Below, piece by piece: positions 17,052-63,590 of a stretch of 64,000 nucleotides of DNA. Below the pieces are notes generated by a model. That model saw nothing but the letters and a program-made list of their open reading frames with translations, ran no database searches and was not told the DNA's origin. The DNA lies in contig JAPQWV010000360.1 of assembly GCA_027422505.1 (NCBI GenBank), forward strand, positions 124,001 to 188,000, read 5' to 3'. Each line of letters begins with the position of its first letter. The stretch's first letter is position 1. The stretch comes from Craterostigma plantagineum (Eukaryota > Streptophyta > Magnoliopsida > Lamiales > Linderniaceae). Position numbers and translations under genes: made by a program.

Positions 17052-17622
17052 ACGGTGTTTCCTTGGAGATGTGGGACGATCGCTTCATCTTCCCCAATTC
17101 ACAGGCAGAGCAGAGGTGTTCCTTATGATATGTTAGTTGGGGTAGACCGTTGACGAGTTTATTCTGACGCAGTTTGTCGATGGTCTTGAAATTGAGATGT
17201 GAAAGACGCCGGTGCCATAGATCGTTCAACTTGGGTGCAACTCGAGAGAGAAGGCATATTGGTCGAGAGGTCGTAAGATTGAGTACGTAAAGGTGGGACG
17301 TGCGCGTTCCAGAAAGAAGAGGCTGTCCCGAGGCATCTATAATGCTGCAGATGTCAGATTCGAAGAGAACCTTGTATCCTTTGTCGCAGAAACGACCAAT
17401 GCTGAAGAGATTATAGCTCAAACCCTCGACATAAGAGATGCCCTTAATCGTCAGTTTGTCATGGACGAGATCACCAGTTCCGAGAATTGGCGTCATTTGA
17501 CCGTTTCCGAAGGAGACCCTTCCGAGATAGCGCTCGGAGAAGTTGCTCAACAGCTCCTTGTTCCCCGTCATGTGTGTGGAGCAACCCGAGTCTAGATACC
17601 ACACATGACAGACCTGCAATCA

Positions 17623-39253: not shown

Positions 39254-39468
39254 TAGGACCCGATGGATGGCTTCGGGTCATTCACCATTGAATTGCATCG
39301 TCAATAGATGGAAATAGAGAAATCAACGAAGAACAAATCGATACGTAAAAGAAATAACGAAAATACTAATGACTAAAAGATCAAATAATGCAACTAGCAA
39401 AAAGCAAATAAAACGTCAAATAAAAATGGCTAAAGTACCGAACTACGTTGTTCCTAATATCAATCTAC

Positions 39469-39486
39469 TCCCCGGCAACGGCGCCA
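39469..39486 (-). promoter_or_regulatory. Primer binding site of element H
   Basis: Minus strand TGGCGCCGTTGCCGGGGA, 6 bp from the 5' LTR. This is the sequence found in Athila-type elements, generally assigned to tRNA-Asp (assignment from memory). Confidence 0.9.
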
Positions 39487-39492
39487 AAAACT

Positions 39493-41037: not shown

Positions 41038-42071
41038 TCGCTAACGAGCAGACATTCCTCCGAGATTGAGTCCAGGGACCATTTGAGTCGACACGCCATG
41101 GGATAACATAAGGATAGAGATCCCATTTCTAGAAGAAGTTCGTCAGCAAATATGGAGGTCACCGGACAATTGTAAGAAGTTGAACGAGTTCAAGCTCAGA
41201 GGTATCTCTCACTGGGAACAGCAAAAGAGGATGAACTACCTCTACATGCTAACCCAACTTGGACCTGATCGGAGACTGGGGATTCCTAAAAGTTAGGTTA
41301 GGAGTCACTCCTAAAAGTTAGGTGAGGAGTCACTTCAAGGATTTATCTCCAATTTGCCAACTGTTGGAGTCCACCGCTCAAAAGATAGATTTCCAACTCC
41401 AATCTATGTCATCGAGCCGATAGATAGAACTCGAGAAGAGCTAACAGAGAGCGATCTGCCATACCTTCCAGCCGAAGAGATCTACAATCTCTACCATCTG
41501 CATGTAGAGGTATAGACATCCTCAAGGCTTCATCAAGAAGGAAGGACTTGACGGAATCTACAGACTCATGGTGCGCCAGGTCAAGTACTATGCCGCACAC
41601 GACCTTCATATGGCTCTGGAGAGCAACATGAAGAAGGTCAACATGACTGCTCCGCGCTTGAAAGAACCAGAGGTCGAAGGGCTTCCCAACAGTCACATCT
41701 ACTTAGGCCCAGTCTTAGGAATCACCTACCACAATTCAATTGCCAACAAGATTAGGTTGATGCTAAGGACTGAGGTCAACAAATTCTACGACGGGACGCT
41801 CAAGACAACCAGGCGGAACATCAAAACAAGATTGGAAGAAATCAATGAAGAGACAAGACGGTCCGATCGCCAATTTGTGGGAGAACAACCACTTCTGACA
41901 AGAATCCTCGAAGCCATAGAAGAGCGGATGGAGATGAGGAACATTATCAGAAAGTACGAGCATGCGCTGGGCTTGCGCAAGTCATTCTACGCCGGACAAG
42001 GACAGATAGTGCAGAAGGGCAATCAAGCACAAAGGGGGGAATGTAGAATACACTTTGTAATTGTGCTTTGA
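41038..42071 (+). pseudogene. Element D ORF2, 3' part
   Basis: Continues the ORF2 interrupted by element H: FLEEVRQQIWRSPDNCKKLN near 41105, a stop near 41295, then 41568-42071 with RQVKYYAAHDLHMALESNMK, KFYDGTLKTTRRNIKTRLEE and EHALGLRKSFYAG. These match by eye the last block of element B ORF2 (RQVRFFATHDLQMAVEHNLN, KFSDGTLTIIQDKLMR). The frame runs through the polypurine tract (AAAGGGGGGA, 42031-42040) and stops 30 bp inside the 3' LTR. Confidence 0.75.
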
Positions 42072-45829: not shown

Positions 45830-46609
45830 TGTTATCCCCGTATTTTATCGGTCAAATATTCGAGTTTGACTGAAATAGGGCGGGCATATCTCCCGCGGAA
45901 AAGATCTCTCGAGATGAAGCCCGAAGAAAGACCGGCCGAGGAGTTGAAGTCGCGCTCGGGATGAAGGCTGCTCGAGAGCTTTGTTCGTGACCAAACGGTA
46001 AAAGACGACCCCAAAATAACTAACCATCATGGCCCTCAACGTGGACAACTCATCATCATGGGTGGTTACCAAACCCACTAATTCCAACGTGGGATGCCTC
46101 AAGTCCTCAACTATATTATATATATAAGAAAGGCAAAGGTGCGTTAGGAAAAGAGGAATCACTTCACTTTATCACAACCGTCCCATTCTATAACTACGAC
46201 AGTTCTATCATTCTCATCCCATCTCTCTGATTTATAACTCTTTTATCATTTGGATTTCACCTCTCATGTTCGATACCACCTTAATATCTCCTCTCACATA
46301 TGGCACTCTCTTTTAAAACTCGACATCTCACGCGAAGGATCCACGGACGTATTTTCTCATAGCTCCACGATCGATCTACGCTCTCTTTTTATTTATCGCT
46401 TTATCTTATTTTATACGCTTTTAGACTTTGATGATTGAATATCTGACTTGAGCGTCGGAGGGGCGTCGCCGAAACGGCGCCCTTTAGCTCCTCTTTTTCG
46501 TGGTATTTCAGGGATCAATTGAAGATGAAGGCGACGAACTCGAAACGGCGACGGACCGATACCTTCCAGCGCACTGTTGATGCTAGGGTCGATTTTTCGG
46601 TCCGCATCA
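45830..46609 (+). mobile_element. Element E 5' LTR
   Basis: 780 bp, TGTTATCCCCG to CCGCATCA. TATA-like stretch (ATATTATATATATAAG) near 46110-46126. Followed by a primer site. Confidence 0.85.
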
Positions 46610-46611
46610 AT

Positions 46612-46629
46612 TGGCGCCGTCTGTGGGAA
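46612..46629 (+). promoter_or_regulatory. Primer binding site of element E
   Basis: TGGCGCCGTCTGTGGGAA, 2 bp after the LTR. This sequence is typical of Tat-type elements; I do not assign the tRNA. Confidence 0.85.
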
Positions 46630-46660: not shown

Positions 46661-48397
46661 ATGGTAGTTGTCGTAAATGATCATGAGCCGCCACCCGACG
46701 GCAACGGGCCGAACCCGGCAGATACAGTCACGATGTTCGCTGCAATCATGCAAGAGATGCAAAGAATCGGGGCTGACGTGGGAGTCCTGATGGCTGAAAG
46801 GAACCGGAGAGGCAATGGATTCGGACAGAACGGAGGACGTGATGCCAGACGAGAGGAAAGCCAGCACGAGGCAAATGGGGAGCGAGACGCTCAATCGGGC
46901 ATTGGAGAACGGAGCGATGATGATCATACCCTGGCGTCAATGCAGAGGAGAGCCCGAGCCGAGAGAAGGAGACAAGCCGACCAACAACGCATGGGTCGAC
47001 AGCACGTCGATCAACAGGCGGCCGACTTGGAGAAAATGAGAGAGGAGATTCGCCAGCTTCAAAATCTTGCAAACCCGCCCGAAGTCCCAATCGTCCCTCG
47101 GGCTTCACCGTTTTCTCCCGAGGTGCTCGCGGCTCCCCTACCCGAACACTTCCGATCTTTTGAAATGAGGAAATATGATGGTTCCGGGCCACCTGAAGAC
47201 CATTTAGCCGCTTTTGAAGGAAATGCGGCGTTGTACCAGCTTAGCGACCCCGTTAAATGCCGACTCTTTGTGACCACTCTGTCAGGAGGAGCCCAACAAT
47301 GGTTCACTTATTTGCCCCCAGGAGGAATCAGAAGCTTTCACGACCTAACCAGCCACTTCTTGAAGTACTTCTCAAGCAATAGAAGACGCCCTTCTTCTGC
47401 AGTAAAATTGTTAAACATAAAACAAGGCGACAGGGAAAGCTTGAGGGATTATCTTCGACGTTTCAATCAAGTAAAGATGGAGGTCCCCAACATCGCGCCT
47501 GAGTTGCTTATTGGAGCGTTCCATCATGGCTTGAGGGACGGGGATCTGTTCAGATCACTGGTGAAGAAATATCCTACCACGGTAGAGGAATTGGTAGCTC
47601 GGGTCGAGAAATATGTCCGAGTAGAAGAATCGCAAGCTCGGGAGCCGGAAGATAGGAAACGCAAGAGTCCTCCACGAGAGCGTCGAAAGAGCCCGCCAAG
47701 AAACCAGGACCGCAGGGTGTTTCCCCGAAGGGATGATCGCCCCTATCCGGTGCCTCCGTTTCCTAGGGTGGATTACCCGAAGCTGCGCGTGAACAAACTG
47801 CGAGCACTGGAGATATGTGAGGAAAATGATTTTCTTCGTCGACCACCTTACATTGAACGCAACCCGAGGCGACCCTTGTCAGACACTTACTGCAACTATG
47901 ACCATGAATATGGGCACACCACGGAGGAATGCTTTCAGCTAAATCGAGAATTGGAGAAATTAATCGCGACCAACCCCGAAGCTCGAGCTAAACTCGCAGG
48001 AATCGAGGGGGGTTTCGGGACCAAACCGCGATACCCTGGGACAAGAAACCGATCTAATACTCAACTAGATCACCAGCTTCACCACCAACGGGAAGTCCGA
48101 AGGAGGACGCCAGAAAGGGAAGATAGACGAGGACCGAAGCACGAAGGAAATGACAACCAAAGGAATCGAGGCAACAGGGAAGTAGGACGACGGAGATCTC
48201 CAGAGAGACCCACGCCACGACAGATCAACATCATATCGGGTGGACCGACGGGAGGAGACTCCAATCGGGCAAGGAAGGCCGGAGTACGCCGATTGGAGAG
48301 CTTCGAAATCAAGACAGGAAGTAAACGGTCGGGACCTATCATTAGCTTCGGTCCCGAGGATTTTCATGGAGGCGACGACTCCATGAAGACGCCCTAG
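46661..48397 (+). CDS. Element E gag (Tat-type capsid protein)
   Basis: 578 aa from ATG 46661, 31 bp past the primer site. The N-terminal ~130 residues are Arg/Glu rich, with a short coiled coil (DLEKMREEIRQLQNL). Retrotransposon-gag domain at residues ~165-300 (LPEHFRSFEMRKYDGSGPPE, WFTYLPPGGIRSFHDLTSHF, ESLRDYLRRFNQV). A basic region follows (RKRKSPPRERRKSPPR), then a zinc-knuckle-like YCNYDHEYGHTTEECFQL near residue 415, which lacks one usual His/Cys spacing. The frame ends MKTP at 48397, while protease is read in another frame that overlaps it. This could be a 1-bp indel or a programmed shift. Packages element RNA. Confidence 0.92.
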   Translation: MVVVVNDHEPPPDGNGPNPADTVTMFAAIMQEMQRIGADVGVLMAERNRRGNGFGQNGGRDARREESQHEANGERDAQSGIGERSDDDHTLASMQRRARAERRRQADQQRMGRQHVDQQAADLEKMREEIRQLQNLANPPEVPIVPRASPFSPEVLAAPLPEHFRSFEMRKYDGSGPPEDHLAAFEGNAALYQLSDPVKCRLFVTTLSGGAQQWFTYLPPGGIRSFHDLTSHFLKYFSSNRRRPSSAVKLLNIKQGDRESLRDYLRRFNQVKMEVPNIAPELLIGAFHHGLRDGDLFRSLVKKYPTTVEELVARVEKYVRVEESQAREPEDRKRKSPPRERRKSPPRNQDRRVFPRRDDRPYPVPPFPRVDYPKLRVNKLRALEICEENDFLRRPPYIERNPRRPLSDTYCNYDHEYGHTTEECFQLNRELEKLIATNPEARAKLAGIEGGFGTKPRYPGTRNRSNTQLDHQLHHQREVRRRTPEREDRRGPKHEGNDNQRNRGNREVGRRRSPERPTPRQINIISGGPTGGDSNRARKAGVRRLESFEIKTGSKRSGPIISFGPEDFHGGDDSMKTP

Positions 48398-51300
48398 TTA
48401 TCCATGCGGAAGTAGCTAATCATGATGTTGGTAGAGTTTTTGTCGACAATGGAAGCTCTGTCAACATCATTTACAAGAGGGCCCTCGATCAAATGGACCT
48501 AGGAGCATACCCCATGGACAGGGTGGAAACGGCTCTATTCGGCTTCACTGGACATTGCATCGAGGCGGTTGGTATCTTACATCTGCCACTTACCCTCGGG
48601 GAGGGTAATATGAGGAAAACACGGATCGCGCCCTTCATGGTCATCAATGGAACAAGTCCGTACAACATCATTCTCGGGAGACCTGCTCTAACCTCTTTCA
48701 TGGCCATCGCCTCGGCGCTTCACCAAAAGATAAAGTACCCCGTGGGAGACAAAGTAGGGGAAGTGTTGGGAGATCGTAAGATGGCTAGGAAATGCTACGT
48801 GGAAGAAGTTCGGGTAGAGATCAAATCCTCTAAAACACGAAGAGAAGACTACCCGAGGGGTAGAGAAACGCTGTACGCCATAGGGACTGCTCAAAAAGAA
48901 GATAAGGAAGAAGAAATCGAAGAAGTGGTGATCAATCCGCCAGAAGGGATAGTCAAAGTTGCCAAGGATCTTCCCCGGGACCTGAGGGAGGGCTTAATCA
49001 GATTACTAAAAAAGAATAAGAACGTGTTCGCATGGACCTCTAAGGACATGATAGGCATCGACCGGGGGATCATGGAGCATAAATTGAATGTCTCCCGAGC
49101 CACTCGACCTGTCTTTCAGAAAAGGAGACATCTCAGCGCTGAAATGAATGCTGAGGCACGACGACAGGTGGAGGAGTTGTTGGAAGCAGGCCACATTCGG
49201 GAGGTTCAATTCCCCACCTGGCTCTCGAACGTGGTCTTGGTCCCAAAATCCTCGGGCAAATGGCGCATGTACGTAGATTTCCGGAACCTAAACGAAGCAT
49301 GCCCGAAGGACTGTTATCCCTTGCCCATGATAGATCAGTTGGTTGATTCCACCTCAGAACATGAGCTACTCTGTTTTCTCGACGCTTTCCAGGGATATAA
49401 TCAGATTTTACTCGCAAAGGAAGATCAAGAAAAAACAAGCTTCATAACCGCCGGAGGAACCTACTGTTACACAGTTATGCCCTTTGGACTGAAAAACGCC
49501 TGTGCCACATACCAGAGGCTGATGGACAAGGTTTTTAAGGATCAAATCGGGAGAAACGTGGAGGTCTATGTCGACGACATTCTAATCAAGTCCCGAGAGC
49601 AAAGCCGCTTTTTAGCCGATGTTCAAGAGACGCTTTCGACCGCCCAGAGATACAACCTGAAGATGAACCCCAACAAGTGTACCTTCGGAGTCAGTTCGGG
49701 CAAATTCTTAGGATATATGGTAACGAGGCGAGGAATCGAAGCTAATCCCGACAAAGTCAAGGCCTTGTTAGATATGACATCTCCCCGAAGTCTAAATGAG
49801 GTTCAAAGGTTAACAGGGAGGATCACCGCCCTTTCGCGTTTTATCTCCCGATCCGCTGACCGCAGCTTACCCTTCTTCAAAGTATTGCGCAAAGTCCAGA
49901 ACTTTGAATGGACACCCGAGTGCGAGAAAGCCTTCCAGGACCTGAAGGAATACTTGAAGAAGTTACCCGTGCTTAACAAGCCATTGCCGGGGGAGGAGTT
50001 GATAGTCTATCTTGCAACGTCGCCTCGGGCCATAAGCTCCGTGATGGTTCGGGAAGAAGAAAGAGTGCAGAAGCCAATCTACTTCGTCAGCCACATCTTG
50101 AAAGGTCCTGAAACGAGGTACACAAATTCCGAGAAACTTCTGTTGGCCCTTCTTATCACTGCTAGGAAACTACGACCCTACTTCCTATCACATCCGGTCG
50201 TGGTGCTGACCAATCAACCCATCGAGAAGATCGCCACACGGCCGGACGTCTCGGGAAGGGTAGTCAAGTGGTCAACAGAATTAGGAGAATACGATATTCA
50301 ATTCAAGCCTCGGGCCGCGATCAAAGCACAGGCATTGGCCGACTTTATGGTGGAGATAGTCGGGAACGGTCCCGAGGAGGTATGGAAGATGTTCGTGGAT
50401 GGTTCTTCCTGCAGTTCAGGGAATGGAGTTGGGATACTTCTCATATCACCCTGGGGGGAAGAGACCAACCTGGCCATCAGACTGGACCACAAGGCATCGA
50501 ACAATGAGACAGAATACGAGGCGCTACTTGCTGGACTCCGAGCAGCAAGGAGAATGGGGATCACCCGATTACTGGTACACTCGGACTCTCAACTCGTGGT
50601 CCAGCAACTAGAGGGGAACTTTGCCGTCAAGGGTCAGAATTTGGAGAAATATGTCCAGGCATTCGAGGAACTTAAAGGAAGCTTCGAAGAACTGAGGATC
50701 GTCTTAATCACCCGGGCCCAGAACGAGAAGGCAGACCAGATAGCCAAGTGGGCAAGCGCCATCGGTCCACTTGAGGAAAAGGGAAAGGTCCTAACCATTT
50801 GGCAGATCGAGGATCAAAACGTGCCCGAACCCGACATTGCCCGAGAAGACTGGAGATACGAGATCTACCGATACCTGCGCCACAAGGTCCTTCCCGAGGA
50901 CAAAGCTCAAGCTCAAAAACTCATGCGAAAGATTCAAAGGTTCACCTTAATCGATACAACTCTATTCAAAAGGTCTTTCGCGGGACCCCTCCTACGATGC
51001 ATATCCAAGGAAGAAGGTGAGTATGTCCTTCGGGAAATACATGAGGGGATTTGTGGAAGTCACATCGGGAGTCGAGCCTTGGTAAGGAAGGCACTCCTCG
51101 CAGGTTTTTTCTGGGCGACAATGAAGGGAGACGCTTTGAAGACAGTTCGAAGCTGTCTCAATTGCCAGAAACACGCCAGTTTGCAGAGAATGCCTGCTGA
51201 AGCCATGAAGTCAGTAACGTCTCCGTGCCCCTTTGATCAATGGGGACTCGATATTGTCGGACCATTCTCCGGGAACGTTGCCCAAAAGAAGTTTTTACTG

Positions 51301-52074
51301 GTAGCTGTGGACTACTTCTCGAAGTGGGTTGAAGCCGAAGCCTTGGCCAAGATTACCGAGGCCGCCATCACCGCCTTCATTTGGAAAAACATCATCTGCC
51401 GCTACGGAATTCCCAGGAGGCTAGTATCGGACAATGGGAGGCAATTCAGTGGAAAGAAGCTAAAGGAATGGTGTGGTGAGCTCGGGATAGAGCAAATATT
51501 TACCTCGGTAGCGTATCCACAAAGTAACGGCCAGGTTGAAGTGACCAATCGCACCATAGTGCAAGGATTAAAGACCCGGCTCGAGGGGCTCGAGAAATCC
51601 TGGTTCAATGAGCTTCAAAGTGTCCTCTGGTCATATCGAACAACACCTCGAGAGGGGACCAATGAGACACCCTTCAGCTTGGTCTATGGGAGCGAAGCAG
51701 TACTACCCGCGGAAATTGGAATGGAAAGCGCCCGAATCCTTACTTACCCTGAAGACAACGACCAGCTCCGCATCGAAGATCTCGATCTTATCGAGGGAGG
51801 AAGAGAAAGAGCCGCCATCAGGATGACCACTTATCAAAGGAGAATGACCAAGTCTTATAACCGCCGAGTCCGAAGCAAGAGGTACGAAGAAGAAGACCTT
51901 GTGATGAAAGAGATTCTAAATCAGGAAGGAAGGAAGAACTTGGAACCCAAGTTCGAAGGACCTTACCCAGTCGTCAAAAAAGCAGGGGAAGCCTCTTACT
52001 ATCTCGAGGACACCCATGGAAAACAGCTCGATCGCCCTTGGAACGCCCGCAAACTGCGGAAATATTATCCCTAG
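48379..52074 (+). CDS. Element E pol (protease, RT, RNase H, archaeal-type RNase H, integrase)
   Basis: Open from about 48379 without ATG; first ATG 48493 (1193 aa). In order: aspartic protease VFVDNGSSVNII near 48440, upstream of that ATG; RT with FRNLNEACPKDCYPLP, LDAFQGYNQI, MPFGLKNACATYQRLMD and catalytic YVDD at 49567-49578; connection/RNase H (YFVSHILKGPETRYTNSEK, KWSTELGEYDIQF); second, archaeal-type RNase H (MFVDGSSCSSGNGVG near 50389, NNETEYEALLAGL, VHSDSQLVVQQL); integrase zinc finger (HEGICGSHIGSRAL, CLNCQKH) and DDE core (DIVGPFSG, VSDNGRQFSG, YPQSNGQVEVTNR). It ends in a chromodomain-free tail (LRKYYP). No internal stop: the best-preserved gene in the window. Confidence 0.95.
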   Translation, partial: LHEDALVIHAEVANHDVGRVFVDNGSSVNIIYKRALDQMDLGAYPMDRVETALFGFTGHCIEAVGILHLPLTLGEGNMRKTRIAPFMVINGTSPYNIILGRPALTSFMAIASALHQKIKYPVGDKVGEVLGDRKMARKCYVEEVRVEIKSSKTRREDYPRGRETLYAIGTAQKEDKEEEIEEVVINPPEGIVKVAKDLPRDLREGLIRLLKKNKNVFAWTSKDMIGIDRGIMEHKLNVSRATRPVFQKRRHLSAEMNAEARRQVEELLEAGHIREVQFPTWLSNVVLVPKSSGKWRMYVDFRNLNEACPKDCYPLPMIDQLVDSTSEHELLCFLDAFQGYNQILLAKEDQEKTSFITAGGTYCYTVMPFGLKNACATYQRLMDKVFKDQIGRNVEVYVDDILIKSREQSRFLADVQETLSTAQRYNLKMNPNKCTFGVSSGKFLGYMVTRRGIEANPDKVKALLDMTSPRSLNEVQRLTGRITALSRFISRSADRSLPFFKVLRKVQNFEWTPECEKAFQDLKEYLKKLPVLNKPLPGEELIVYLATSPRAISSVMVREEERVQKPIYFVSHILKGPETRYTNSEKLLLALLITARKLRPYFLSHPVVVLTNQPIEKIATRPDVSGRVVKWSTELGEYDIQFKPRAAIKAQALADFMVEIVGNGPEEVWKMFVDGSSCSSGNGVGILLISPWGEETNLAIRLDHKASNNETEYEALLAGLRAARRMGITRLLVHSDSQLVVQQLEGNFAVKGQNLEKYVQAFEELKGSFEELRIVLITRAQNEKADQIAKWASAIGPLEEKGKVLTIWQIEDQNVPEPDIAREDWRYEIYRYLRHKVLPEDKAQAQKLMRKIQRFTLIDTTLFKRSFAGPLLRCISKEEGEYVLREIHEGICGSHIGSRALVRKALLAGFFWATMKGDALKTVRSCLNCQKHASLQRMPAEAMKSVTSPCPFDQWGLDIVGPFSGNVAQKKFLLVAVDYFSKWVEAEALAKITEAAITAFIWKNIICRYGIPRRLVSDNGRQFSGKKLKEWCGELGIEQIFTSVAYPQSNGQVEVTNRTIVQGLKTRLEGLEKSWFNELQSVLWSYRTTPREGTNETPFSLVYGSEAVLPAEIGMESARILTYPEDNDQLRIEDLDLIEGGRERAAIRMTTYQRRMTKSYNRRVRSKRYEEEDLVMKEILNQEGRKNLEPKFEGPYPVVKKAGEASYYLEDTHGKQLDRPWNARKLRKYYP

Positions 52075-52340
52075 AGGGGGGTACCCTTATTTGCACATGT
52101 TTTTCTTTTATTCTACCTACTATTTCCTTAAGTTTACTTCTATCGCTTTTGAGATGTAAACCATATCAAGTTATTAATGAAGTTTATTTTCTTTCCGTAC
52201 GAGGAATCTCCGAGTCGAAATTCAAAGAACTTAAAAAGGCATGAAGACCCGGGTAGAAGACACTTCATCTCCCAAGGAGACAATCGCTCCAAGAACCCCT
52301 TCGGGATAACTACCCTCGGGCAATCTCCTTTGCACACACT
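52075..52340 (+). other. Element E post-pol spacer
   Basis: No ORF of note. It contains CCGAGTCGAAATTC and CCCTCGGGCAAT words that reappear in the tandem repeat. Confidence 0.5.
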
Positions 52341-52814
52341 GAATTCCCTCTACGAGAGGCTGAGAAATTCCCTAAAGGGAAAACATTCTTGCGCACACTG
52401 TTATCCCTCTACACGAGGCAGCGCCACCTCTATATAAGCTAGAGGCAAAGAAGGCCCCTCGAGACAAAACCCCTCGGGTAATGTAAACTGCGCACATCGA
52501 ATGCCCTCTACGAGAGGCTGAGAAATTCCCTAAAGGGAAAACATTCTTGCGCACACTGTTATCCCTCTATGCGAGGCAGCGCCACCTCTATATAAGCTAG
52601 AGGCAAAGAAGGCCCCTCGGGACAAAACCCCTCGGGTAATGTAAACTGCGCACATCGAATGCCCTCTACGAGAGGCTGAGAAATTCCCTAAAGGGAAAAC
52701 ATTCTTGCGCACACTGTTATCCCTCTACGCGAGGTAGCGCCACCTCTATACAAGCTAGAGGCAAAGAAGGCCCCACGGGACAATTCCCCTCGGGCAATAT
52801 AAACCACGCACACT
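52341..52814. repeat. 158-bp tandem repeat, three units, in element E
   Basis: Units begin GAATTCCCTC at 52341 and GAATGCCCTC at 52499 and 52657, an exact 158-bp period. A degraded fourth unit reaches about 52860. Each unit holds three stem-like segments: CCTCTACGAGAGG, TTCCCTAAAGGGAAAA and CCTCTATATAAGCTAGAGG; the last includes a TATATAA box. Two identical-looking 60-codon minus-strand ORFs here are by-products of the repeat. Confidence 0.95.
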
Positions 52815-52859
52815 GGCGTCCCTTGACGATGAGGCAGCGCAACCTCAACACAGGTGAAA

Positions 52860-53148
52860 GGGCACAAAGCATTTCACGATATCGCCGAGGCTACATTTCG
52901 GGATCGGGGGGACGCCCTCGACCCGAGGTGATAGACCTCATTCCCCTCGTAAATCATCAAGGACAAATTGAATGAGGGCATAAGTAATGGATATTGAACA
53001 AGAGGCGATGCTCAGGTAATTAAAAGTCCTTTATTTATTTAGATACTGCCAATTTTATAACAGGAAAGAAAAACAAGAAACAGAAACATTAACGGACGAC
53101 AAGGAACAAAGTAAAACCAAAAACTAGACTCTAAGGAAAGACATTAGA
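52860..53148 (+). other. Region between the tandem repeat and antisense gene 1
   Basis: No ORF. Probably the 3' UTR of antisense gene 1 (minus strand) and spacer. Confidence 0.4.
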
Positions 53149-54999
53149 CTAATCCTTCTCAGCCGGACCATCGCCTCGGGAAGCATCACTACTCTCACCC
53201 AAATCAAACTCATCCCAAAGACTTTTTCCCTTCACTGGCTTCGGTGGGGAACGACGAGGAGCTAATGCCATATAAGCCGCCTCAGGATTCAAGAAATTAA
53301 AAGGATGTGCGCTCTCTGGAAAACCATTCGCCCTTATCTGAGACAGACAACCTTGAAATCCGAAGTTGAAGTACATATTGGCAGCCTCGGAAACTCTCTC
53401 CTCAGGAACCAGCTTAGGGTTGGGTTGATGCTCCCGGTTACGGCGAATTTCTCTCTCCGAGTGGAGCTCTTGTCGGAGCTTGCCGACTTCAAATTGAGCC
53501 CTTGCTAACTGATCCTTCAAGCGACCAACCTCCTGAGCTTCTTCACTAACTCGCATTGTCATCTCCACATTACAAGAGCGCGCCGAGTCAGTCATTTTTT
53601 GCTGGAGACGATATCGCCGAGCCCCCTCACAGGATAGGGAATAAGCCTGAAGACATAAAAGAAGCAATTTAAATAAATGCTAAGTCACGGTTGAGGAACG
53701 GAGAACTTACCTGGCTCAAGGCTAAAGCCCATTCTTTCCAGAAAAGGCCATCAGACAACTCCTTGGCAAAATCCTTCTCCTCGGGAGTCGGGAAGTTCAT
53801 CATATAAGCCAAATAGGATTCTCCATCTCTCTCCAGCAAGAAGTGGGGATGAAGAGCCGGTCGAGACAGGGAAGGACCCTCTCGCAGAGAAACGGGGGGT
53901 GTAGGCGGTGATGGTCTCACCCGCTTAGGACGTCCCACCTCTTGACGAGGAGTTAATGCCTCGTCCTCAGGATTATCTACCGAGGGCTTACCGTTAGCTC
54001 CACGTTCACGTATCAAGGCGCCTCTAGTTCGGACGGTCGGGGTGGGCAAAACACCCGAACCATCGCTCACTGAAGAAAAAGAGATAGTTAAGGAGGGAAG
54101 AACTAAGAAGTGAAAACCAAGGAAGAACGTACCAAGAACGCGAGAAGAGGTAGCTGTCCCAACAGGAACCTCGGACACCAACTCCCTTATAGAGAAGCTT
54201 TGGGTGCCAACTCGATCCATGAATGCCCTTAAAAGCTCGGGCTCGTAACCCGAGGCCTGGCAATGGTACCTCCACTGGAGTAAGGAAAATCGGCGATCCC
54301 GATGCTGGGCCGAAGGACGCACATAGAAGAACTTGTTCATCCATCCTTTGGTAGTAGTGAAATTGTCATGAAGAACATCGGAGGAAGGAACGAAGACAAA
54401 CTTACCCACATCTCTCTCGCATACACGAAAGAAGTTAAGAATCAGTTCAGTGGTAAGGGGAAAACTAAGCCTACGAGCAACGGCAGCTAAATCTAGGAGC
54501 AGACTACATGAGTTAGGAAATATTTGCCCAGGGGAGATACCTAAGGCTTCACAAAGGTCAAGAAGGAAAAAGGTACAGGGAACCTCAGTCCCATATCCAC
54601 TTGGTCAGTAAAGAATGTCAAAAAACCAGTAGGAGGCGAAGACGCCACTTGCAAGGGCCCGGGTAACTGAACCTCGTAGTCGGAAGGGATCCTGGCCCGC
54701 TCCAAGTATTCTCGAAGCAGCTGCGGGCTTAGGGTTGACACTTTTGTCTGGTACCATGGGAGGTTCGCTTTGGATCGAACCTCCTCCACTTCAGCAGACC
54801 AACGGGCTAAGCTCTTACGATAAGCTTTATCCTCATCATCTCCTTGAGGGAATGGCGACTTCACGCCGGAGGCCGGGTCGGGCTTTTCGCCCGAGTCAAA
54901 GCGAAAACTCGAAGAGCTACCAAAATTAAAAGGAACATGTTCTGTCTTGCGAAAACCGGCAGCAACACGTTTACCCTTGGAAGAAGAAGATGAAGCCAT
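53149..54999 (-). pseudogene. Antisense gene 1 of element E: three-exon gene, 'putative gypsy type transposon' domain
   Basis: Minus strand, opposite to pol. ATG at 54999 (MASSSSSKGKR), or 55038 in the same frame. Exon 1 to 54133: PWYQTKVSTL, PSDYEVQLPGP, MGLRFPVP, ISPGQIFPNSC and KGWMNKFFYVRP fit the plant domain annotated 'putative gypsy type transposon' (Pfam PF04195, from memory). Intron 1 54132-54070 (63 bp, GTACGT...CAG, phase 1). Exon 2: Pro/Arg-rich linker, then FPTPEEKDFAKELSDGLFWK. Intron 2 53710-53647 (64 bp, GTAAGT...CAG, phase 0). Exon 3: coiled coil (EVGRLKDQLARAQFEVGKLR), FGFQGCLSQIRANGF ... HPFNFLN, acidic end. One frame change near 54560 in exon 1. Function unknown. Confidence 0.78.
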
Positions 55000-55038
55000 G
55001 GAAGAATTATGGAGCAAGAAACACGAATGTAATATCAC

Positions 55039-55897
55039 GAAAGCAGAGGCGAGGGATTGATGAATTATGAAAGAAGAAGGCTACGAATTTAAAGACAGGC
55101 TCCAGACTTGGACAGGAAGATAAGAAGTACCAAATTAAAACGGCTAGATACGATCCAACACGCGTTAGTCCCGAGATTCCCTCGCCAAATCTTCGGATAG
55201 ACCGGGTTTTGAAATGACCGTTGCTAAAATACCGGGTACGCCGCCTCAGAAAAACTAGGGAACGTTTGGGCCAGATTCACGATTTTTTCGGACCAAAGAC
55301 CGGGTATACTATGCTCCTCGAGATGGATACCCGGAAATCTCGCCGTCATACTCGGTCATATTCTTTGAGGTTAGGATGGTCCCTGGGTTAAACCCTCGGG
55401 TGGGTAATCGTCGGAAAAGTTTGCCTCTAGCCCGACACATTCAAGACCCTCGGGAGACAAAGTGGTAATAATGGGTGACGTCAAAATAGGCGGACAAACG
55501 GCTCGAGGCCGATTGCTCTAAAACCAAAAAGACGAGGGGAGGAAAGCAGAAGCATGACAAGAAAGCACAAGAAACAACATAAAGGGAATTAGCTGCTCCG
55601 GAAATAAAGGAAAGATAAAGGAGCCCGGAGGCACTACATTCAGATATTATGCCCCGAAAGGCTACTTTCAGAACAGAAGGGAAATATATATATTAGGGTT
55701 CATTACATTCCCAGATAAAGAGAAAACATAAAAGGAAAAAATTTAAACGGCCTAGTGGCCTGATCTTCACCCCCGGCAACCTCCTCGGGCTTCTCAGGAT
55801 CTCCGCCAGCTTCAACCTCTCGGCCTCCTCCATCTCCTTCCTCGGCTTGCTCCTTAAGGGCTTCTCCCCCATCACGACCCCCCTGTACCTGGATCTC
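55039..55897 (-). other. Spacer between the two antisense genes
   Basis: No supported ORF; the minus-strand ORF at 55693-56013 is a frame shadow of gene 2. The half next to 55039 should contain the promoter of antisense gene 1, but no clear TATA box is seen. The other half is likely the 3' UTR of gene 2. Confidence 0.45.
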
Positions 55898-58026
55898 CTA
55901 AGCATCTTCACGGGTGTCTTCCCCGGAGGCACCTCGCATCTCCTCGAACTGGGGCTCAGCCACAACTGCAGCGGGAGCCTGCACAGCTGGCGTCCTTGAA
56001 GGACCGCTCTCATCTCGGGGTTCGGGTAAATAGCCCCCAGAAGGGGCCTCCTTCAAGGTCCTGATGGCATTCAGAAACTTAAAGGGGTGATCTGCCCTAC
56101 TATACCCGTGCGCTCGAAGTTCGGAGATGCACCCATAGAAGCCCCATTTGAAGAAGGTCTTCATATCGTTCAGATGATGGCGCTTGGGGACGTAGTTCTT
56201 CTCCAGATCCTTGTCCCACTCCTTCTTATCTTCGACCCGAGCCACCTCCGATCGAGAAAGATGGCGTTGGAGCTCTGCTGCATCCTCCTGGAGCTTTTTC
56301 TCCCGAGCCTTAGCCTCGACTGCCTCTCGCTCAAGCTCCTCCACCCGCTTGCGAAATTCGGCCTCGGCTTGAGACAAGGCTTTATTTCGCTCGGCAAGAC
56401 GGGAGACACGTTTCGTGACCTCGATCGCCAGAGAGAGCGACTGCATTAATGGAGGTTCGGTAAGATCAAAATCGCCCGATGAAGTAAAAAGTAGAGAGAA
56501 ATACATACCTGCCCGAGGGTAACACCAAGAAGGCTCATGAGGTCAAGATAGGAGAGCTCGCGAGTATAATGCCTGTTAGCCTCATCAGGGAACTCCCGAA
56601 GGAACTCCCAGCTCTCATCCTTGGATGGGTCACCAAAAAAGGCAGGTTGCTTAGCCCGACCCAACGCGACTGGACCCCCTGGGGAAGAGGAAGCAGGTTG
56701 ACTTGAAGAAGCTCGGGTTCTTTTCGCCGAGGCCCCTCTTGGGGAAGGAGCCGCTCGCTTCGGCGCAGACTTTTTCAACCCCGAGGAAGAAGCTGGGGCC
56801 TTGCCCTTACTCTTTGAACGGGTATTCGGGGCACTTTCTTGGGGATTTGGCTGGCAAAGATCCTCATCCTCCTCGTCAGCAATGGCGATGACCTCGGCCA
56901 AAGACATCCTTTCAGCTACAGGAAAGAATAAAAGACTGTCAGAGGTGCTAAAAACCGAAACAAAGACACAGTAGGGGTCCGGCTATATACCTATGGTTCG
57001 GGTGAGGAGAACGGCTTTTGACGAAAACCCGTGGGCACAGAGAAGTTCCTCGTTACGGAGTTTTTTGGCGTAATACTGACGGCTACCCACCCTGCCCAGG
57101 AATGTTTCTACCCGAGCAGGAGGCTCGGGAGGAAGTGAATCAGAGGTAGAGCATTGTCATTCCAAGAAAAAGGAATCAACTCTTGCTCGGCACAATCAGC
57201 AGAAGGCTTAACAAAGAAAAACTTGCTCACCCAACCCTTATGAGAAGAAGGGTTACCCCGGATGAGGTCAGGTCTCCGGGTGGGGGAGAAGAAAAATTTT
57301 CCCTCCTCTTTCTTGTTTAGCCTCAGAAAGGCTAATAACATTGGGACCGAGGGGGTATAACGATAATGGCTCAAAATAACAGCCATAGAGAGAAGAAGAC
57401 AAAAAGAGTTTGGAGGCAATTGAGCAGGAGAGATTCTGAAGTGTTTACAGATGTCAACAAGGAATCGGGGGACCGGAAACCTAAGGCCCATTTCTACTTG
57501 ATCAAGAAAATATGTACCAAAGCCCTCGGGGGGAACTAGCTAAATCGGTAGGTGAAGGGATCCTAATCTCAAAGTCCCGGGGCATACCGAAAACAGATTG
57601 CAATTTAGGGAGATCAGCGGCTTTAAAGGTAGAAACCTTGATTTGATGCCAGCGAACATCGGGACGATTAGCCCTAAAAGCTTCGACTTCCCTAACCCAA
57701 GCACTGAAGGCCCGACGGAAAGGCCCCGGGCCAGGGAAGTCATCCTCACGAGGAGGAATCGGCTCCCTTATAACTGGGGGATGGGGAGCAACGGGGGTCG
57801 AATGGGTGGCCTCAGAATCTACAGAATCTATATTCGGGGAAGTACCCCAAGGAATTTCCTCATTCTCCCGTGAATTAGCTCCCACACTAACTACAAGGCT
57901 GCCCAAACCCTCAAAAGAATCACTATTACTATTGGAAGAACTACTACCGCTACTACCCGAACCCTCTGAGCCCTCAGAAAAGCTACCCGAAGAAATATGG
58001 GGACCCTCACCGGAATCAGAAGACAT
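55898..58026 (-). pseudogene. Antisense gene 2 of element E: divergent paralogue of antisense gene 1
   Basis: Minus strand from ATG 58026 (MSSDSGEGPH, Ser/Gly-rich start). Exon 1 to 56991: WHQIKVSTFK, PRDFEIRIPSP, MGLRFPVPRFLVDI, ISPAQLPPNSFCLLLSMA, KGWVSKFFFVKP, the same domain as gene 1. Intron 1 56990-56916 (75 bp, GTATAT...TAG, phase 1). Exon 2 56915-56509: basic Ser/Pro/Lys linker (KRAAPSPRGASAKRTR), then FPDEANRHYTRELS. Intron 2 56508-56441 (68 bp, GTATGT...CAG, phase 0). Exon 3 to 55898: coiled coil (KRVEELEREAVEAKAREKKL), WGFYGCISELRAHGY ... HPFKFLN, then TREDA. A shift at a G tract near 57531 and a stop near 57075 break exon 1. Intron number and phases match gene 1. Confidence 0.78.
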
Positions 58027-58178
58027 ATCTAGGCAGGAAAAAGAGCTAAGGGAAGAAAATACTTACAGAGACCTAAAAGCGGGGAATGAAAGGCAGGAAG
58101 GCTCGGGAACTCGGGAACTTCACGAGGAGAGAGAGTAGTGAGAGAAATGGAAGAAGAAAAATGAAGGAAGGAGTGGGG

Positions 58179-58186
58179 TATATATA
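58179..58186 (-). promoter_or_regulatory. TATA box upstream of antisense gene 2
   Basis: TATATATA on the minus strand, about 150 bp before ATG 58026, with a pyrimidine-rich (TTCTTCTTCC) leader between. Typical of a plant RNA polymerase II promoter; inferred. Confidence 0.5.
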
Positions 58187-58500
58187 GGGCCCATCCGGCC
58201 GATTGGGGCCTTTGGATAAGAATTTGATCAACGGACAAAAAGAAACCGCGTCAACCGTGCCTCGATCCGCGTCAAGTCTCAGAACGGGCGCCAGAGTTCC
58301 CGCCCAGATGTCCCATCAGAACCAACCAATATAAAGGCGACACGTGGCTGGGAATACGAGACGATGATCAAGGCCTCTAAGGAAGAGATAATGGACCTAT
58401 ATCCGAAGAAAAGGTGCGCAGAGTCAGGCCCAACGACGACCCTCAGAGCCACGACGGTTCGGATATTCTGCCACTACCCCGCAAAAACGTCCAAAATTCA

Positions 58501-60162
58501 TGATAAACGTATTTTAATACGTTTATTGTTATGTTTATTTGGGTTATAATAGGAAAGTTTTGATCATTCTATGCATTTATTGGCTCTATTTACACCCATT
58601 TAAATATTATAGGACCTTCGAATGATTATCGAGCGAAAAGGAACGAAAACGAGGTGAAAACGACACGAAAATGGCGAAGTTTGAAGCTGCCAGATATAAG
58701 TCACGGCCGTGAATCATACTGCACGAAGCCGTGAAAGCGGGCAGAGAGCTTAAGGAGCAAAGGTCCCTAATAGTCACGGCCGTGAATCATAATGCACGAG
58801 GCCGTGAAAGCGGGCAGTGGGTCGACTATCGAAAGTCACGACCGTGAACTCCTATGCCTGAGGCCGTGAACTTGGGCAGTGAGCGTAAGAGACATAAGCT
58901 TCCAGTGTCACGGCCGTGAACAACGTTGTACGAAGCCGTGAATCTAGGCAGAGACTTCACTGTCCTCTGTCACGGCCGTGACGCTTCATGCGAAAGGCCG
59001 TGAATCCGGGCAGAGAGCTCAACGAAGGAATATTGATCCATTCACGGCCGTGACTTCAGATGCAACAAGCCGTGACTCATGCCAGAAAGTCAAGAAATAG
59101 GGTTTTGAGCCGTCGTCACGGCCGTGAAGGCCCATTAAGAGGCCGTGAACGTGCTAAAATTCAGGGTTTTAGCCCATTTTCGAAGCATAAAAAGGAGAGG
59201 CACCTTAGAACTGAAAAACAACTTGATAGGGACGAAAACTTAGAGCAAGGAAGAGAAGGAAGAACACTAGAAGCAGTCCCGTGATTCGGAGAAGCTCAAG
59301 GGACGATCCGACGACGAAGCTACGCTCATACGATCGAGGAACGAGAGCTCCACCTCGGAAACACCATATTCACTTCTTAGGGAAGTTTTTATGAGTTCTC
59401 TATCCTCGTTACCTTTAAATCTCGTTGTTGTGACGTTCAATATGAGTAGCTAATCCTCTCGTGTGTTTGGGAATAGATGAACGTTGGGTTATGTCGTAGT
59501 TAAGGCGTAGGATAATCGTGAACACGTGTATTCGACAATTTATCGTTCTATGATATTGTTTCTTTGTATCAATATGTCTATGTGTTGATATGAATGTGTG
59601 GTATATCGTTTAGGGTGACAGCTAAATAACGATCAGGCCGTTCGTAGACGTTAGGATTCGAGTATAGGGTGACAGCAAATACTCGATCCTCGCCATCTAG
59701 TAATCGCTAAACTTAGATTCCCACGAACGTTTAGGGCGACAACAAATCCGTGAGTGGGTAGGAAATTACTGCGATTTAGTCGATTTTCACGTAGGAACGA
59801 TATTCCGTAGCTTTAGCCGACACCACCTAGCGGGATTCGAATCCCGAACACATATTTGTCATCTTAAGTCACTCTTATTACTTCTAGTTGTGTTCCTTAG
59901 TCTTCCGATCCTTTAAGTTGCTCTGTTAAGTTAGTTCGTAGTATAAACAAATCCTACTCTTTTATTTAGGCTATCGATTCGATAGGTTAATACTAGTACT
60001 CAATTTATTCTTCGTGTTCGATACTCGGATATTCACTATAGCTATATTACAAACGATAGGTACACTGCCTATCGCGCGTGATTCTAGTTATAATATATTC
60101 GTTTTAATTATTACTTGACGTACTCGCACGATCTTTTATTTAAACACACACGCAAGCGATCA
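58501..60162 (+). mobile_element. Element F 5' LTR
   Basis: 1662 bp, TGATAAACGT to AAGCGATCA, sense orientation. Longer than the LTRs of C and G because of a larger palindrome array. The region from about 59390 on matches the left parts of C, G and H in reverse. Confidence 0.92.
58701..59127. repeat. Palindrome array in element F LTR
   Basis: TCACGGCCGTGA at 58701, 58774, 58908, 58970, 59042 and 59116, with a one-mismatch copy at 58836. Spacings are 73, 62, 72, 62, 72 and 74 bp. A GCCGTGAA half site with GCGGGCAG/CGGGCAGAG nearby sits in most intervals, making a ~65-75-bp unit. Confidence 0.92.
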
Positions 60163-60168
60163 AGTTTT

Positions 60169-60186
60169 TGGCGCCGTTGCCGGGGA
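60169..60186 (+). promoter_or_regulatory. Primer binding site of element F
   Basis: TGGCGCCGTTGCCGGGGA, 6 bp after the LTR; identical to the site of element H. Confidence 0.93.
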
Positions 60187-60350
60187 ATAATTTGATATTA
60201 GGAACACCTGTGTTCGGTAATTTAGCCATCCACTTATCTGTTACTTTGTTCTAGTTATCAGATTTCTTTGATTTGCGATTATTTTCTCGGTTGTGACTTG
60301 TTAATTAACTAACGAGATTCGCTGGTCTTCAAGGTGTACTTTTACGGTGA

Positions 60351-60506
60351 ATGACCCGAAATCATCCATCGTATCCACTCATTGAAGCATCTCCGGATTT
60401 CGAGCGTACGTTGCGACGAAGACTAAGGGAGGAAGTAATTGGAAGTTCTTCGTCCGACAACTCATTTCAGCTAGTTGATTATTCTCAAGACACAAGAGAA
60501 GGTTTT
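60351..60506 (+). pseudogene. Element F gag, first 52 codons
   Basis: ATG at 60351 (MTRNHPSYPLIEASPDFERT, then an Arg-rich and Ser-rich stretch), open until the LTR of element G at 60507. Position after primer site and leader fits an Athila-type gag start. Truncated by insertion. Confidence 0.7.
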
Positions 60507-61908
60507 TGATCGACACGTAGTGAGTGATGAGAGTGCGACAAGTGATAAAATAAAACGTAAACCTAATTACTATCACCAACGTGCGATAGGCAGTGAACCC
60601 ATCGTTTGTAGTGCAGTAAAGTGAGTAAACGAGTATCGAACACAAGGAACAAATCAAGTACTAGTAATGACCTAATCGACTCGATATTTAGCCTAAAGAA
60701 AATACGCAAATTGTTTGACGACTCAACCTAACAGACCACTCCTAATTCAATCAGAAATTCAAAGGACGCGACTAACTGATATGAGAGTTTTCAAATGATA
60801 AAGACGTGCTCGGGATTCGAATCCCGCTAGGTATTTACAGCTGAGACAATAAAATCGCTCCTAAGTGCTTAAGACTAAATCGCAGTAATTTCCTGCCCGC
60901 TTGCGAGTTTGCTGTCGCCCTAAACGCTCGCGGGAATCTAAAATTCACGAATTACTAACGCGAGGATCGAGTATTTGCTTTCGCCCTATACTCGAATCCT
61001 ATCTTCTATGAACGGCCTAAATGTTATTTAGCTGTCGCCCTAAACGTTTTTCCAAGCAATCACTTTAACACATAGACATATTAAAGCAACGAAACATATT
61101 CATAGAACGATAAATAGTCAATAGCACAAAGTCACGATAATATATGTCTTAACTGCGAATTATTCTAGCGTTCATCTAATCCCAAACACAACGGAATTTA
61201 GCTACTCATAATAAAGGGAAAAACTACGAAAGAATTGAAAGATAAAGCCGAAGAACTCATGATCTTTCCTACTGATGAATCTGGGGTGATCTCGGGGAAA
61301 GATCTTCGTTCTTCGTTAATTCGCCGTGGATTCTTCGTTGATCCCTCTCTTGCGCTCCGGGACGGGATTTCCTATTCTTTTCGCCCTAATTTCGTCTCTG
61401 GATGATTGGGAATTGATCTCTGGTGAGTTGTGTCGTTTCTGGGTCGAATTTGGGCTTTTTATACTGATTCCCGAGTCGGTCACGGCCTGGGACATGGGCC
61501 GTCACGGCCGTGACCATCATCGTCCGCGTCTCGTCACTTTCTGCCCCAGGTCACGGCCAAGTGCATTGACGGTCACGGCCGTGACCCTTATCAGCGCACC
61601 TCTCTGCCTCGCGTCACGGCCAGACGCGTTAAGCGTCACGGCCGTGACCATCATCAGCGTCCTTCTCTATCGCGTACTGTCCCTCATCACGGCCGTGACG
61701 CGTATTGCGTCTGGCCGTGACCGAGGGCAGTGTTGCCCATTTCGCTCCGTTTTGCCTCGTTTTCGCTCGTTTTCGCCCGAAACTCGTCCTAAGCTCCTTC
61801 AACAATCAAACAAGTGTAAATATATCGAATAAATGCGTAATTTAATTGCTAAAGCTCTATTATACCCTGAATAAATATTACGATAAACGCATTGAAATGC
61901 GTTTATCA
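60507..61908 (-). mobile_element. Element G 3' LTR
   Basis: 1402 bp, plus strand TGATCGACACGT to GTTTATCA. Differs from solo LTR C by only scattered substitutions and very few indels, so the family moved recently. Confidence 0.95.
61488..61732. repeat. Palindrome array in element G LTR
   Basis: TCACGGCCGTGA at 61502, 61573, 61636 and 61687, spaced 71, 63 and 51 bp as in LTR C, with half sites between. Confidence 0.9.
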
Positions 61909-63590
61909 AACCTCCCCACACTTAAGCATTTGCTTGTCCTCAAATAAATTAAAAATCAGGTAAGGCATCAAACTAGGATAACGGCACGATTGTTCGCAAT
62001 TTATCATCAAAGCTAGAAAGCACAAAAGGAATCAAGCAAACAATCACGGACATTACACAAATGACTTGCACTCGTCGACCTGAATTTCCTTCGCACTGCT
62101 AATCGAGACTCATACCTCACAAGGATTCACTCAAATCACTCAAGTGTATAGGCTAGTATATGATGAGTCGCTCAATTCGTGCACTAGACCAACCCCTACC
62201 ATAAACTTACAAGTTAATCGCATTTCTACTATTCAGCGGGCAAGTATAAATCTGAGGGTCTTTTTGGGGAAATGGTCGAATAATCATGAAATGGCAAGTA
62301 TAAGTAATGAACACTTAATCTTAGAGCTAGGACACGTGATCGAAAATTTTCAAAGAACACAGCATGATCAAACAGACAGTCACAGCCCAACATAAGACTC
62401 GACGTTCTCGCTCCGAAATCCTAGACTTTTCTGCTCGACCCTCTCAACTCAGTCCCCTTTCATTTTCTGCCCTTTCACCTTAGTCACGTTCTACTTTTAT
62501 GCACTGCCCTTATTCCCTAAAACATCAAGGTTCGGCTTTTGTCGCAAAGAATACATCGTCACAGCGAATGCCGTGTACCTAGGGATACTTATTACCGAAA
62601 CCTATATCTTGCCAAAGGGTTATGGGCAGGCTTATGCAAGAGATCGGGTCATTTCAGAAAACGATCAAGTAAGGGACGAGTCATTTCATGAATAGCAGAG
62701 AAGAACATCAAATCATACATTGAAACAGTAACTCTCACGTTCGACTTCTGCTCTATTCTAATCAACTCAGGCTCATAAAATTTACGGGGCTTCTTCGGGT
62801 CAGTGGCTTCTATAACATACGAGGTAAGCAACGAATAGGCTCAGGCTCAACGGGGCTAACTAATGGGGTTCGTCATGGTTAAGAAAATTTTGGCCCTGGA
62901 CTTGAATCCTAATGCCCTCATCGTTTTCACGCTCGCACACCAAAACAGTTTCAACACGCATCAGACAGGCAAGTTCTAGAGAGATATAGACTAGGCACGT
63001 TACACAACCAAGAAAAATGAGCGTAAGCTCGTCAGGCTCAAACTCTCACACGAAATAGGGTCATGTGTACGGATCTCTGAAAACAGTGCTATATCTATTC
63101 AGGCAGATAAGATTCAATCAGTCATGCATGTCCTAATTGCTCACATAATTTCATAGAATGCAGACCAACTCGAGATAAGCGCAAACAATCATGCCTGATT
63201 CAGTAATTCATGCCTTTCCAACGGACTCAACGACTCACAGACACGTCATATAAATTTAAAATTCCCCTCCCCACACTTAAGTCAAACGTTGTCCTCAACG
63301 TAAAAATAAAAGGAAGGTGAAAAGAGTTGAAAAGAAGCGTGACTCCCCTGACGAATAAGGGACGTGCTCGTGAGGTAGTCGGTTTAGCGCGGGGCGGTCG
63401 TGTTGTTATCCGTTAAGCGTTGTAAGCCGTTATGCGTTTCCATGCGCTAGCTAGAGAGATAAATAGGCATAAGATAGAGTAGTCATAGATTAACTATAAA
63501 CATAGTTATAAGCGTAGAGGTGGAAATAAATTCATAACACACGCGACTACTCAAACACGAAATGTCAATAAGGAGTAAAAGAAGAGATCC
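61909..63590 (-). other. Element G 3' untranslated region with two PPT-like motifs
   Basis: Minus strand GTGTGGGGAGGTT (61921-61909) abuts the LTR and is the purine tract, preceded by TTGAGGACAAGCAAATGCTTAA. A second copy of the block (TTGAGGACAACGTTTGACTTAA then GTGTGGGGAGGGG) lies at 63298-63261. No coding sequence between; the short ORFs at 62144-62395 and 62649-62831 are not convincing. Confidence 0.75.

Follow-up and report, generated by a model that had tools for sequence, protein, structure and literature searches.

Two paralogous antisense genes with predicted introns in a Retand-type retrotransposon of Craterostigma plantagineum

Results

Two predicted three-exon genes lie antisense in a Retand-type retrotransposon

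We analysed a 64,000-nucleotide stretch of Craterostigma plantagineum DNA (contig JAPQWV010000360.1, positions 124,001 to 188,000; hereafter the window), in which a long terminal repeat (LTR) retrotransposon carries two tandem genes, downstream of pol and on the opposite strand (Table 1). Comparison with other copies of the element shows that the genes arose by an old duplication and are conserved for the proteins they encode, and suggests that both are spliced. The original prediction, made from the window alone, had described N- and C-terminal motifs common to both genes and four GT-AG introns of 63/64 and 75/68 nt, in phases 1 then 0; the motifs are present in both genes, and coordinates, ends, lengths and phases of the introns were all verified. 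It had also treated the genes as intact, which they are not in this copy: the frame of gene 1 is broken once, between 54604 and 54544, and that of gene 2 twice (57539-57505 and 57156-57111), and relative to open sibling copies exon 3 of gene 2 ends prematurely. On the antisense strand of 52075-58495, 7 stretches of at least 130 amino acids are open, whereas 300 shuffles gave 0.71 on average and never more than 4.

The host element is, by its domain order, its second RNase H and its antisense Transposase_28, a Retand-type (Tat lineage) Ty3/gypsy retrotransposon. The order of pol domains, reverse transcriptase (RT)-RNase H-integrase, is that of Ty3/gypsy elements. The second RNase H (PF13456, pol residues 636-754) is flanked by the RNase H matches (473-600) and the integrase zinc-binding match (840-894), an arrangement described as a trait of Ogre and Retand elements (PMC6317226), and the antisense Transposase_28 open reading frame (ORF) 3' of pol that marks Retand elements is provided by gene 2. 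When the 1.71-Gb assembly (G000, in which the window lies on contig C360) was searched for sibling copies, six (L002-L004, L006-L008) aligned from the antisense region past the pol stop with no family break, and a seventh (L005) aligned only part way toward the end of pol. Since sibling copies match unbroken into the end of pol, the antisense region belongs to the element.

Table 1. Features of the element, in window positions
Feature	Position	Strand	Remarks
Gene 1 exon 1, divergent Transposase_28-like domain	54133-54999	-	ATG at 54999; alignment, profile match
Gene 1 intron 1	54070-54132	-	63 nt, phase 1, GT-AG
Gene 1 exon 2, charged linker, K[KR]x[KR] motif	53711-54069	-	
Gene 1 intron 2	53647-53710	-	64 nt, phase 0, GT-AG
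Gene 1 exon 3, coiled-coil-like stretch	53149-53646	-	GF.GC.S..RA.G....HPF.FLN motif
Gene 2 exon 1, Transposase_28 domain	56991-58026	-	ATG at 58026; PF04195, E 8.4e-8
Gene 2 intron 1	56916-56990	-	75 nt, phase 1, GT-AG
Gene 2 exon 2, charged linker, K[KR]x[KR] motif	56509-56915	-	
Gene 2 intron 2	56441-56508	-	68 nt, phase 0, GT-AG
Gene 2 exon 3, coiled-coil-like stretch	55898-56440	-	C-terminal motif as in gene 1
TATA-box position of gene 1	55085-55096	-	TATAAAT in 24/28 sequences; TTTAAAT in the window copy
TATA box of gene 2	58177-58190	-	TATATATA in 27/27 sequences having this place
Poly(A)-signal-like sequence of gene 1	53029-53041	-	AATAAA given as 53039-53035; 28/28 sequences
5' LTR	45830-46612	+	783 bp as matched; inner end exact to within few bases
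Sequence adjoining the 5' LTR, which we take to be the primer-binding site	46611-46629	+	1 match, 0 expected
gag ORF	46661-48397	+	PF03732, E 5.8e-18
pol ORF: RT, RNase H, second RNase H-like domain, integrase	48493-52074	+	Pfam domains
Tandem repeat between pol and gene 1	52341-52812	.	unit 158 bp, 3.0 copies; also in sibling copies

The genes are ancient paralogues kept in a fixed order

A PF04195-type domain had been proposed for these genes. Gene 2 scored 32.8 bits against PF04195 in the window and 27.5 in an open copy, both above the curated cut-off of 26.2, so that for this gene the proposal stands. Gene 1 of an open copy matched weakly, at 18.1 bits (E 0.0032), below the cut-off, and its window counterpart gave no match at E up to 0.1. 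Despite this sub-cut-off score, alignment indicates that gene 1 is clearly homologous to gene 2. In the window the two are 31% identical in the first part of exon 1 (piece 1a), 37% in the second (1b) and 30% in exon 3, with none of 1000 shuffles scoring as well; the score of piece 1c was reached by 1 shuffle in 1000. The similarity of exon 2, a low-complexity linker, is marginal (reached by 2/1000). When the two genes of an open sibling copy were aligned, none of 300 codon shuffles scored as well as exons 1 and 3, and 4 did as well as exon 2. The K[KR]x[KR] motif is found in 22 of 23 open second exons of gene 2 and in all 20 of gene 1. Exon 3 of gene 2 matched an SMC model (E 0.0016) and that of gene 1 a mitotic checkpoint model (E 0.02), both weakly and far below the cut-off. 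Searches of a protein database, viral contigs and prokaryote contigs found no relatives outside the source genome, and exon 1 of gene 2 had a single match in the PDB, an adnectin (E 0.047), which was taken as chance.

The pair recurs throughout the genome. Searches with exon 3 were limited to the best 150 of 2,240 scored candidates for gene 1 and the best 150 of 2,469 for gene 2. At least 106 of these 150 gene-1 loci are accompanied by a gene-2 exon 3 on the same strand and in the same order, 1.8-2.9 kb off (median 2,691 bp); the 44 without a partner may reflect only the best-150 lists. Among the matches listed, no reversed or opposite-strand gene 2 lies within 5 kb of the 150 loci. Gene 1 is the nearer of the two to its window counterpart in 95% of listed pairs, and in 33 listed pairs exon 3 averages 91% identity for gene 1 and 69.5% for gene 2.

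More distant relatives keep the same arrangement. Two divergent places (L061 and L062) carry both genes in order, and there the four best-scoring GT-AG pairs include the two introns of gene 1 as well as intron 2 of gene 2; the seven pairs listed for each place do not include gene 2 intron 1. At L011 the Transposase_28 region is 55% identical to gene 2, and about 2.9 kb beyond it lies a gene-1 orthologue (L063), 74% identical over 145 columns; the best GT-AG pair of this orthologue falls where exon 1 ends. A 16-sequence tree supported the gene 1 group at 99% and the grouping of gene 2 with L011 at 95%. The L059/L012 group is nearer to gene 2 than to gene 1 (81%) if the root is placed on L020/L014; an earlier tree joined the L059 and L020 groups instead, with weak support. 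Because the ordered pair recurs in divergent and distant families, the duplication predates several element families of this genome, which bears out the earlier proposal of an ancient duplication with both copies kept. Matches to gene 1 were only weak at L064. Tandem Transposase_28 units at L059 (G000:C24) and L060 (G000:C14) were considered as further ancient pairs and rejected, their units being 97-99% identical; spaced at about 2.9 and 3.76 kb, they represent recent local amplification.

The predicted introns are conserved and join open frames

The introns were followed through 27 other aligned copies from the same genome (L002-L008, L039-L058). The GT of intron 1 is retained in 27/27 copies and that of intron 2 in 26/27, for gene 2 and gene 1 alike; the AG is retained in 27/27 and 27/27 (gene 2 introns 1 and 2), 26/27 (gene 1 intron 1) and 24/27 (gene 1 intron 2), and in L046 a larger deletion takes out intron 2 of gene 1 altogether. 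When both introns are removed, gene 1 is fully open over 574-575 codons in seven of the 27 copies (L005, L039, L047, L049, L051, L052, L054) and gene 2 over 705-711 codons in three (L052, L054, L055); L049 has a 635-codon open version of gene 2. Retaining either intron closes the gene 2 frame early in L049, L052, L054 and L055, and intron 2 of gene 1 must be removed in all seven open copies to keep the frame. In open copies intron 1 of gene 1 measures 62-64 nt and intron 2 63, 64, 75 or 76 nt, and intron 1 of gene 2 measures 74 or 75 nt and intron 2 68 nt throughout. Three of the four introns thus vary by lengths not divisible by three, and are therefore not tolerable as coding sequence. Introns and frames are accordingly conserved in other members of the family, one of the checks that had been proposed, with the splice dinucleotides kept in 24-27 of 27 copies. 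By the standard of conserved GT-AG introns that join open frames these are spliced genes, the splicing itself being predicted.

A splice-site scan with a generic table, which ignored frames and took GT-AG pairs 55-130 nt long from the antisense strand of 52075-58495, ranked the four introns 1, 2, 3 and 5 among 1,852 pairs; the best pair in shuffled sequence scored 9.8 on average and 13.8 at most (100 shuffles). Because only the first of the four scores exceeds the best shuffled pairs, and because the earlier choice of introns was possibly guided in part by consensus, the other copies provide the better test. A phase-1 intron at the matching place of exon 1 was also found in L009, L010, L011, L012, L015, L018 and two units of L059, where it ranked 6, 1, 3, 1, 2, 14, and 2 and 1, respectively, within the locus. 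An attempt to explain the first frame break of gene 2 in the window as an additional intron (GT-AG 57587-57494, rank 8) was abandoned, as this would delete residues common to the paralogues.

Both protein frames have been under purifying selection

Selection was examined in 27 sequences (the window and 26 copies, L058 excluded), a variant being called shared if carried by at least 4 copies. Among shared variants the ratio of nonsynonymous to synonymous change (N/S) was 0.10 for gene 1 (105 synonymous, 35 nonsynonymous) and 0.19 for gene 2 (126 and 75), compared with 0.70 and 0.53 among private variants (Fisher p 4e-15 and 1e-7); adding the divergent copy L058 lowers the private N/S of gene 1 from 0.70 to 0.29. 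The intron columns have fewer shared variants per site (0.091 and 0.127) than do synonymous sites (126/506, 105/408). In four of the five other frames the shared-variant N/S was 1.2-2.0. In the fifth, a sense frame that has its third positions in register with the antisense ones, it was 0.18 and 0.25. In an open copy, each of the three sense frames contains 17-40 stops over gene 2 and 22-31 over gene 1. Since the sense frames are full of stops and the third positions coincide, the constraint belongs to the antisense frame, and the signal thus survives the comparison with sense frames on which the prediction had been staked.

Divergence between subfamilies agrees with this. Against L061, which like L062 represents a divergent subfamily, dN/dS was 0.09 for exon 1 and 0.02 for exon 3 of gene 1 and 0.16 for exon 3 of gene 2; against L062 it was 0.13 for part of gene 1 exon 1 and 0.20 for gene 2 exon 3. 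These are the five usable rows of eight, at high dS (0.98-2.08); dS was saturated for gene 2 exon 1 against L061 and gene 1 exon 1 against L063, and gene 1 exon 3 of L062 (23 codons) was dropped because its coordinates were wrong. Both genes have thus been conserved as proteins under purifying selection, gene 1 more strongly. A codon-position test between the paralogues (over 401 codons the identities at positions 1, 2 and 3 were 0.50, 0.56 and 0.32, with 15 identical among 67 shared fourfold sites) was discarded as evidence of selection, codon-shuffled alignments giving a near-identical profile; paralogy rests on alignment scores, and selection on N/S and dN/dS.

Each gene has a candidate promoter of its own

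The TATAAAT of gene 1 stands about 94 nt upstream of its ATG, the window copy being among the exceptions, and the TATATATA of gene 2 stands 160 nt upstream of its ATG. A conserved TATA box in front of each gene suggests separate antisense promoters. In all 28 sequences an AATAAA lies about 110 nt downstream of the gene 1 stop; no clear poly(A) signal could be assigned to gene 2.

Discussion

That antisense Transposase_28 ORFs typify Retand elements is already in the literature. In a survey of 2,735 recent elements of this kind, Vicient (2025) reported such an ORF in 97% of clusters; 104 antisense ORFs included 57 assigned to Transposase_28, 11 to Smc and 2 to mitotic checkpoint protein, and the Transposase_28 domain was predicted to bind DNA (PMC11963269). 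Like these TRP28 ORFs, the genes described here place an antisense Transposase_28 between pol and the 3' LTR; tandem repeats occupy the same region in both (units of 158 bp here, 8-100 bp as reported for Retand), and some of the surveyed elements have antisense Smc or mitotic checkpoint ORFs. Unlike in the survey as described, we find two paralogous genes of three predicted exons each, whose gene model unites Transposase_28 and the SMC-/MAD-like coiled coil as separate exons. The survey used an ORF finder, and the word intron is absent from its main text (PMC11963269). We infer that the separately named Transposase_28, Smc and mitotic checkpoint ORFs are exons of one spliced gene. The second gene copy may have gone uncounted so far because gene 1 scores below the PF04195 cut-off.

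Other elements offer further parallels. According to a 2020 review (Vicient and Casacuberta, PMC7264820), gene23 of maize Grande and aORF-3R of RIRE2, Retand and PvRetro13 are likewise antisense accessory genes between pol and the 3' LTR; for gene23 a promoter of its own and a nuclear protein are reported, and ORF2 of PvRetro13 has an SMC domain. Unlike gene23 and aORF-3R as described there, the window genes have predicted introns and occur as paired paralogues. The same review calls for a search for antisense and spliced transcripts. Ogre also has an intron within a Tat-clade element, on the sense strand (Neumann et al, 2019; PMC6317226), whereas the introns reported here belong to antisense genes. 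As an analogy only, the HBZ gene of the retrovirus HTLV-1 (named in PMC11963269 and PMC7264820) is an antisense gene near the 3' end that encodes a nuclear regulator. We found no report of introns in these antisense genes in the literature searched; older primary papers lie outside it, so that priority is uncertain. Nor did that literature contain the two-intron model, the second divergent paralogue, or Transposase_28 and SMC/MAD-like ORFs as one gene.

Since the pair recurs in at least 106 places of the genome and its protein code is conserved, both genes are probably functional as accessory genes of the element, broken as they are in the window. The results suggest a model, to which we give about even odds (roughly 50%), whereby two anciently duplicated, spliced and selected antisense genes encode proteins that are likely to regulate the element in trans from the nucleus. 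The genes would be transcribed from their own promoters and their introns excised. Lying antisense, the introns would be read backwards in the sense RNA used for reverse transcription and so would persist, and the orientation is indeed compatible with the earlier suggestion that it allows intron survival. The proteins would enter the nucleus via the basic motif of exon 2, bind DNA through the Transposase_28 exon, as its published prediction implies, form homo- or hetero-oligomers through the exon-3 coiled coils, and act on the chromatin or transcription of the element. Action in trans is proposed because many copies, that of the window included, are broken while open copies exist.

Several points weigh against this model. 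The coiled-coil and SMC/MAD matches are weak, K[KR]x[KR] is a short, common motif, and the predicted structure, with a predicted local distance difference test (pLDDT) score of 42, is too poor to use. As to the introns, only intron 2 of gene 1 (score 17.1) beats the best shuffled pairs, the other three scoring no higher than these; the acceptor of gene 2 intron 2 ranks 75th of 435, which weakens the argument from splice scores; and intron 1 of gene 1 can be retained without closing the frame in four of the seven open copies. Moreover, transcriptional and other nuclear roles fit the evidence alike.

The main rival holds that both proteins serve the particle or pre-integration complex as cofactors, concerned with nuclear import or target choice and not with transcription. 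Protein-level selection and the basic motif fit such a role just as well, and a part in retrotransposition and nuclear import was raised in the 2020 review (PMC7264820). Separate antisense promoters, as suggested by the TATA boxes, would however uncouple the proteins from gag-pol expression; we favour regulators, and regard the cofactor role as unlikely while granting it more weight than any other rival.

That the genes are instead old, decaying passengers, selected only in the past and without a present role, would account for both being broken in the window although the two LTRs of its element are nearly identical, and for at least one gene being broken, partial or shortened in 25 of the 27 other copies. 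Yet open gene pairs exist, 124 of the best 150 gene-1 exon-3 matches (a list favouring intact copies) contain no stop, and variants common to copies are still strongly constrained, which makes this explanation improbable. There is a slim chance that the antisense transcript itself is the functional product, pairing with sense RNA to form double-stranded RNA and cause silencing or interference, as antisense RNAs are described to control other retroelements (PMC7264820, PMC12786077). This would leave the strong constraint on the protein frames unexplained. The original prediction had offered pairing with pol RNA as one possibility, which the positions do not support: gene 1 ends at 53149, followed by its AATAAA, and pol ends at 52074, so that the antisense unit appears to stop about 1 kb short of pol. 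Finally, that the introns are unreal and the exons are independent ORFs, as published ORF surveys have them, draws on the in-frame intron 1 of gene 1 noted above and is very improbable given the conserved splice dinucleotides, exon phases that join into frames of 574-711 codons, and intron length changes not divisible by three in otherwise open genes.

Returning to nuclear regulators, a more specific and rather doubtful version is a two-subunit control complex encoded by the Retand elements of this plant, in which the coiled coils of the two proteins would pair and Transposase_28 would bind the element's DNA, countering silencing or setting transcription in trans; the 158-bp repeats beside pol are perhaps its DNA target. 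If correct, what has been published on Retand as antisense Transposase_28, Smc and mitotic-checkpoint ORFs would be exons of one spliced gene family. More generally, catalogues of the antisense ORFs of Retand have so far offered neither a function nor a spliced gene model, and the three-exon model together with the selection statistics names the proteins to study. It suggests that ORF-only surveys can cut one gene into unrelated-looking pieces, and offers a natural case of intron-bearing genes that would outlast reverse transcription by lying antisense.

Setting of the element in the window

At the gag/protease junction (48370-48500) gag stops and protease (VDNGSS) goes on in a different frame, which could reflect either mutation or a programmed frameshift. 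The partner of the 5' LTR lies beyond the window (G000:C360:212947-213729), in a match that spans query positions 1-783 and is reported as 100% identical; the LTR also matches an inverted near-copy on the same contig (G000:C360:390166-406765). When compared with the first 1.5 kb of the flanks of seven siblings (L002-L008), it matched over 42 bp at 86% in one flank only, and these seven flanks have in common another terminal sequence beside gene 2. The window element may be a recombinant carrying foreign LTRs.

At about 58500 the element is cut short in the window by LTR-like sequence of a second family, which we take to be Athila-like. Copies of this family lie at 15648-17052, 36219-41040 and 58500-61909, one pair being 96.8% identical and 45 kb apart, and TCACGGCCGTGA motifs are abundant in it. 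Elsewhere in the window, the large ORFs at 9130-10848 (-) and 33775-34494 (+) are homologous (32% over 234 positions, E 5e-30 in a single comparison), and a Pfam search of both found no family above its cut-off. An ORF at 4132-4983 (+) contains Transposase_32 (PF20167, E 5.4e-17), also a 'putative plant transposon protein' family.

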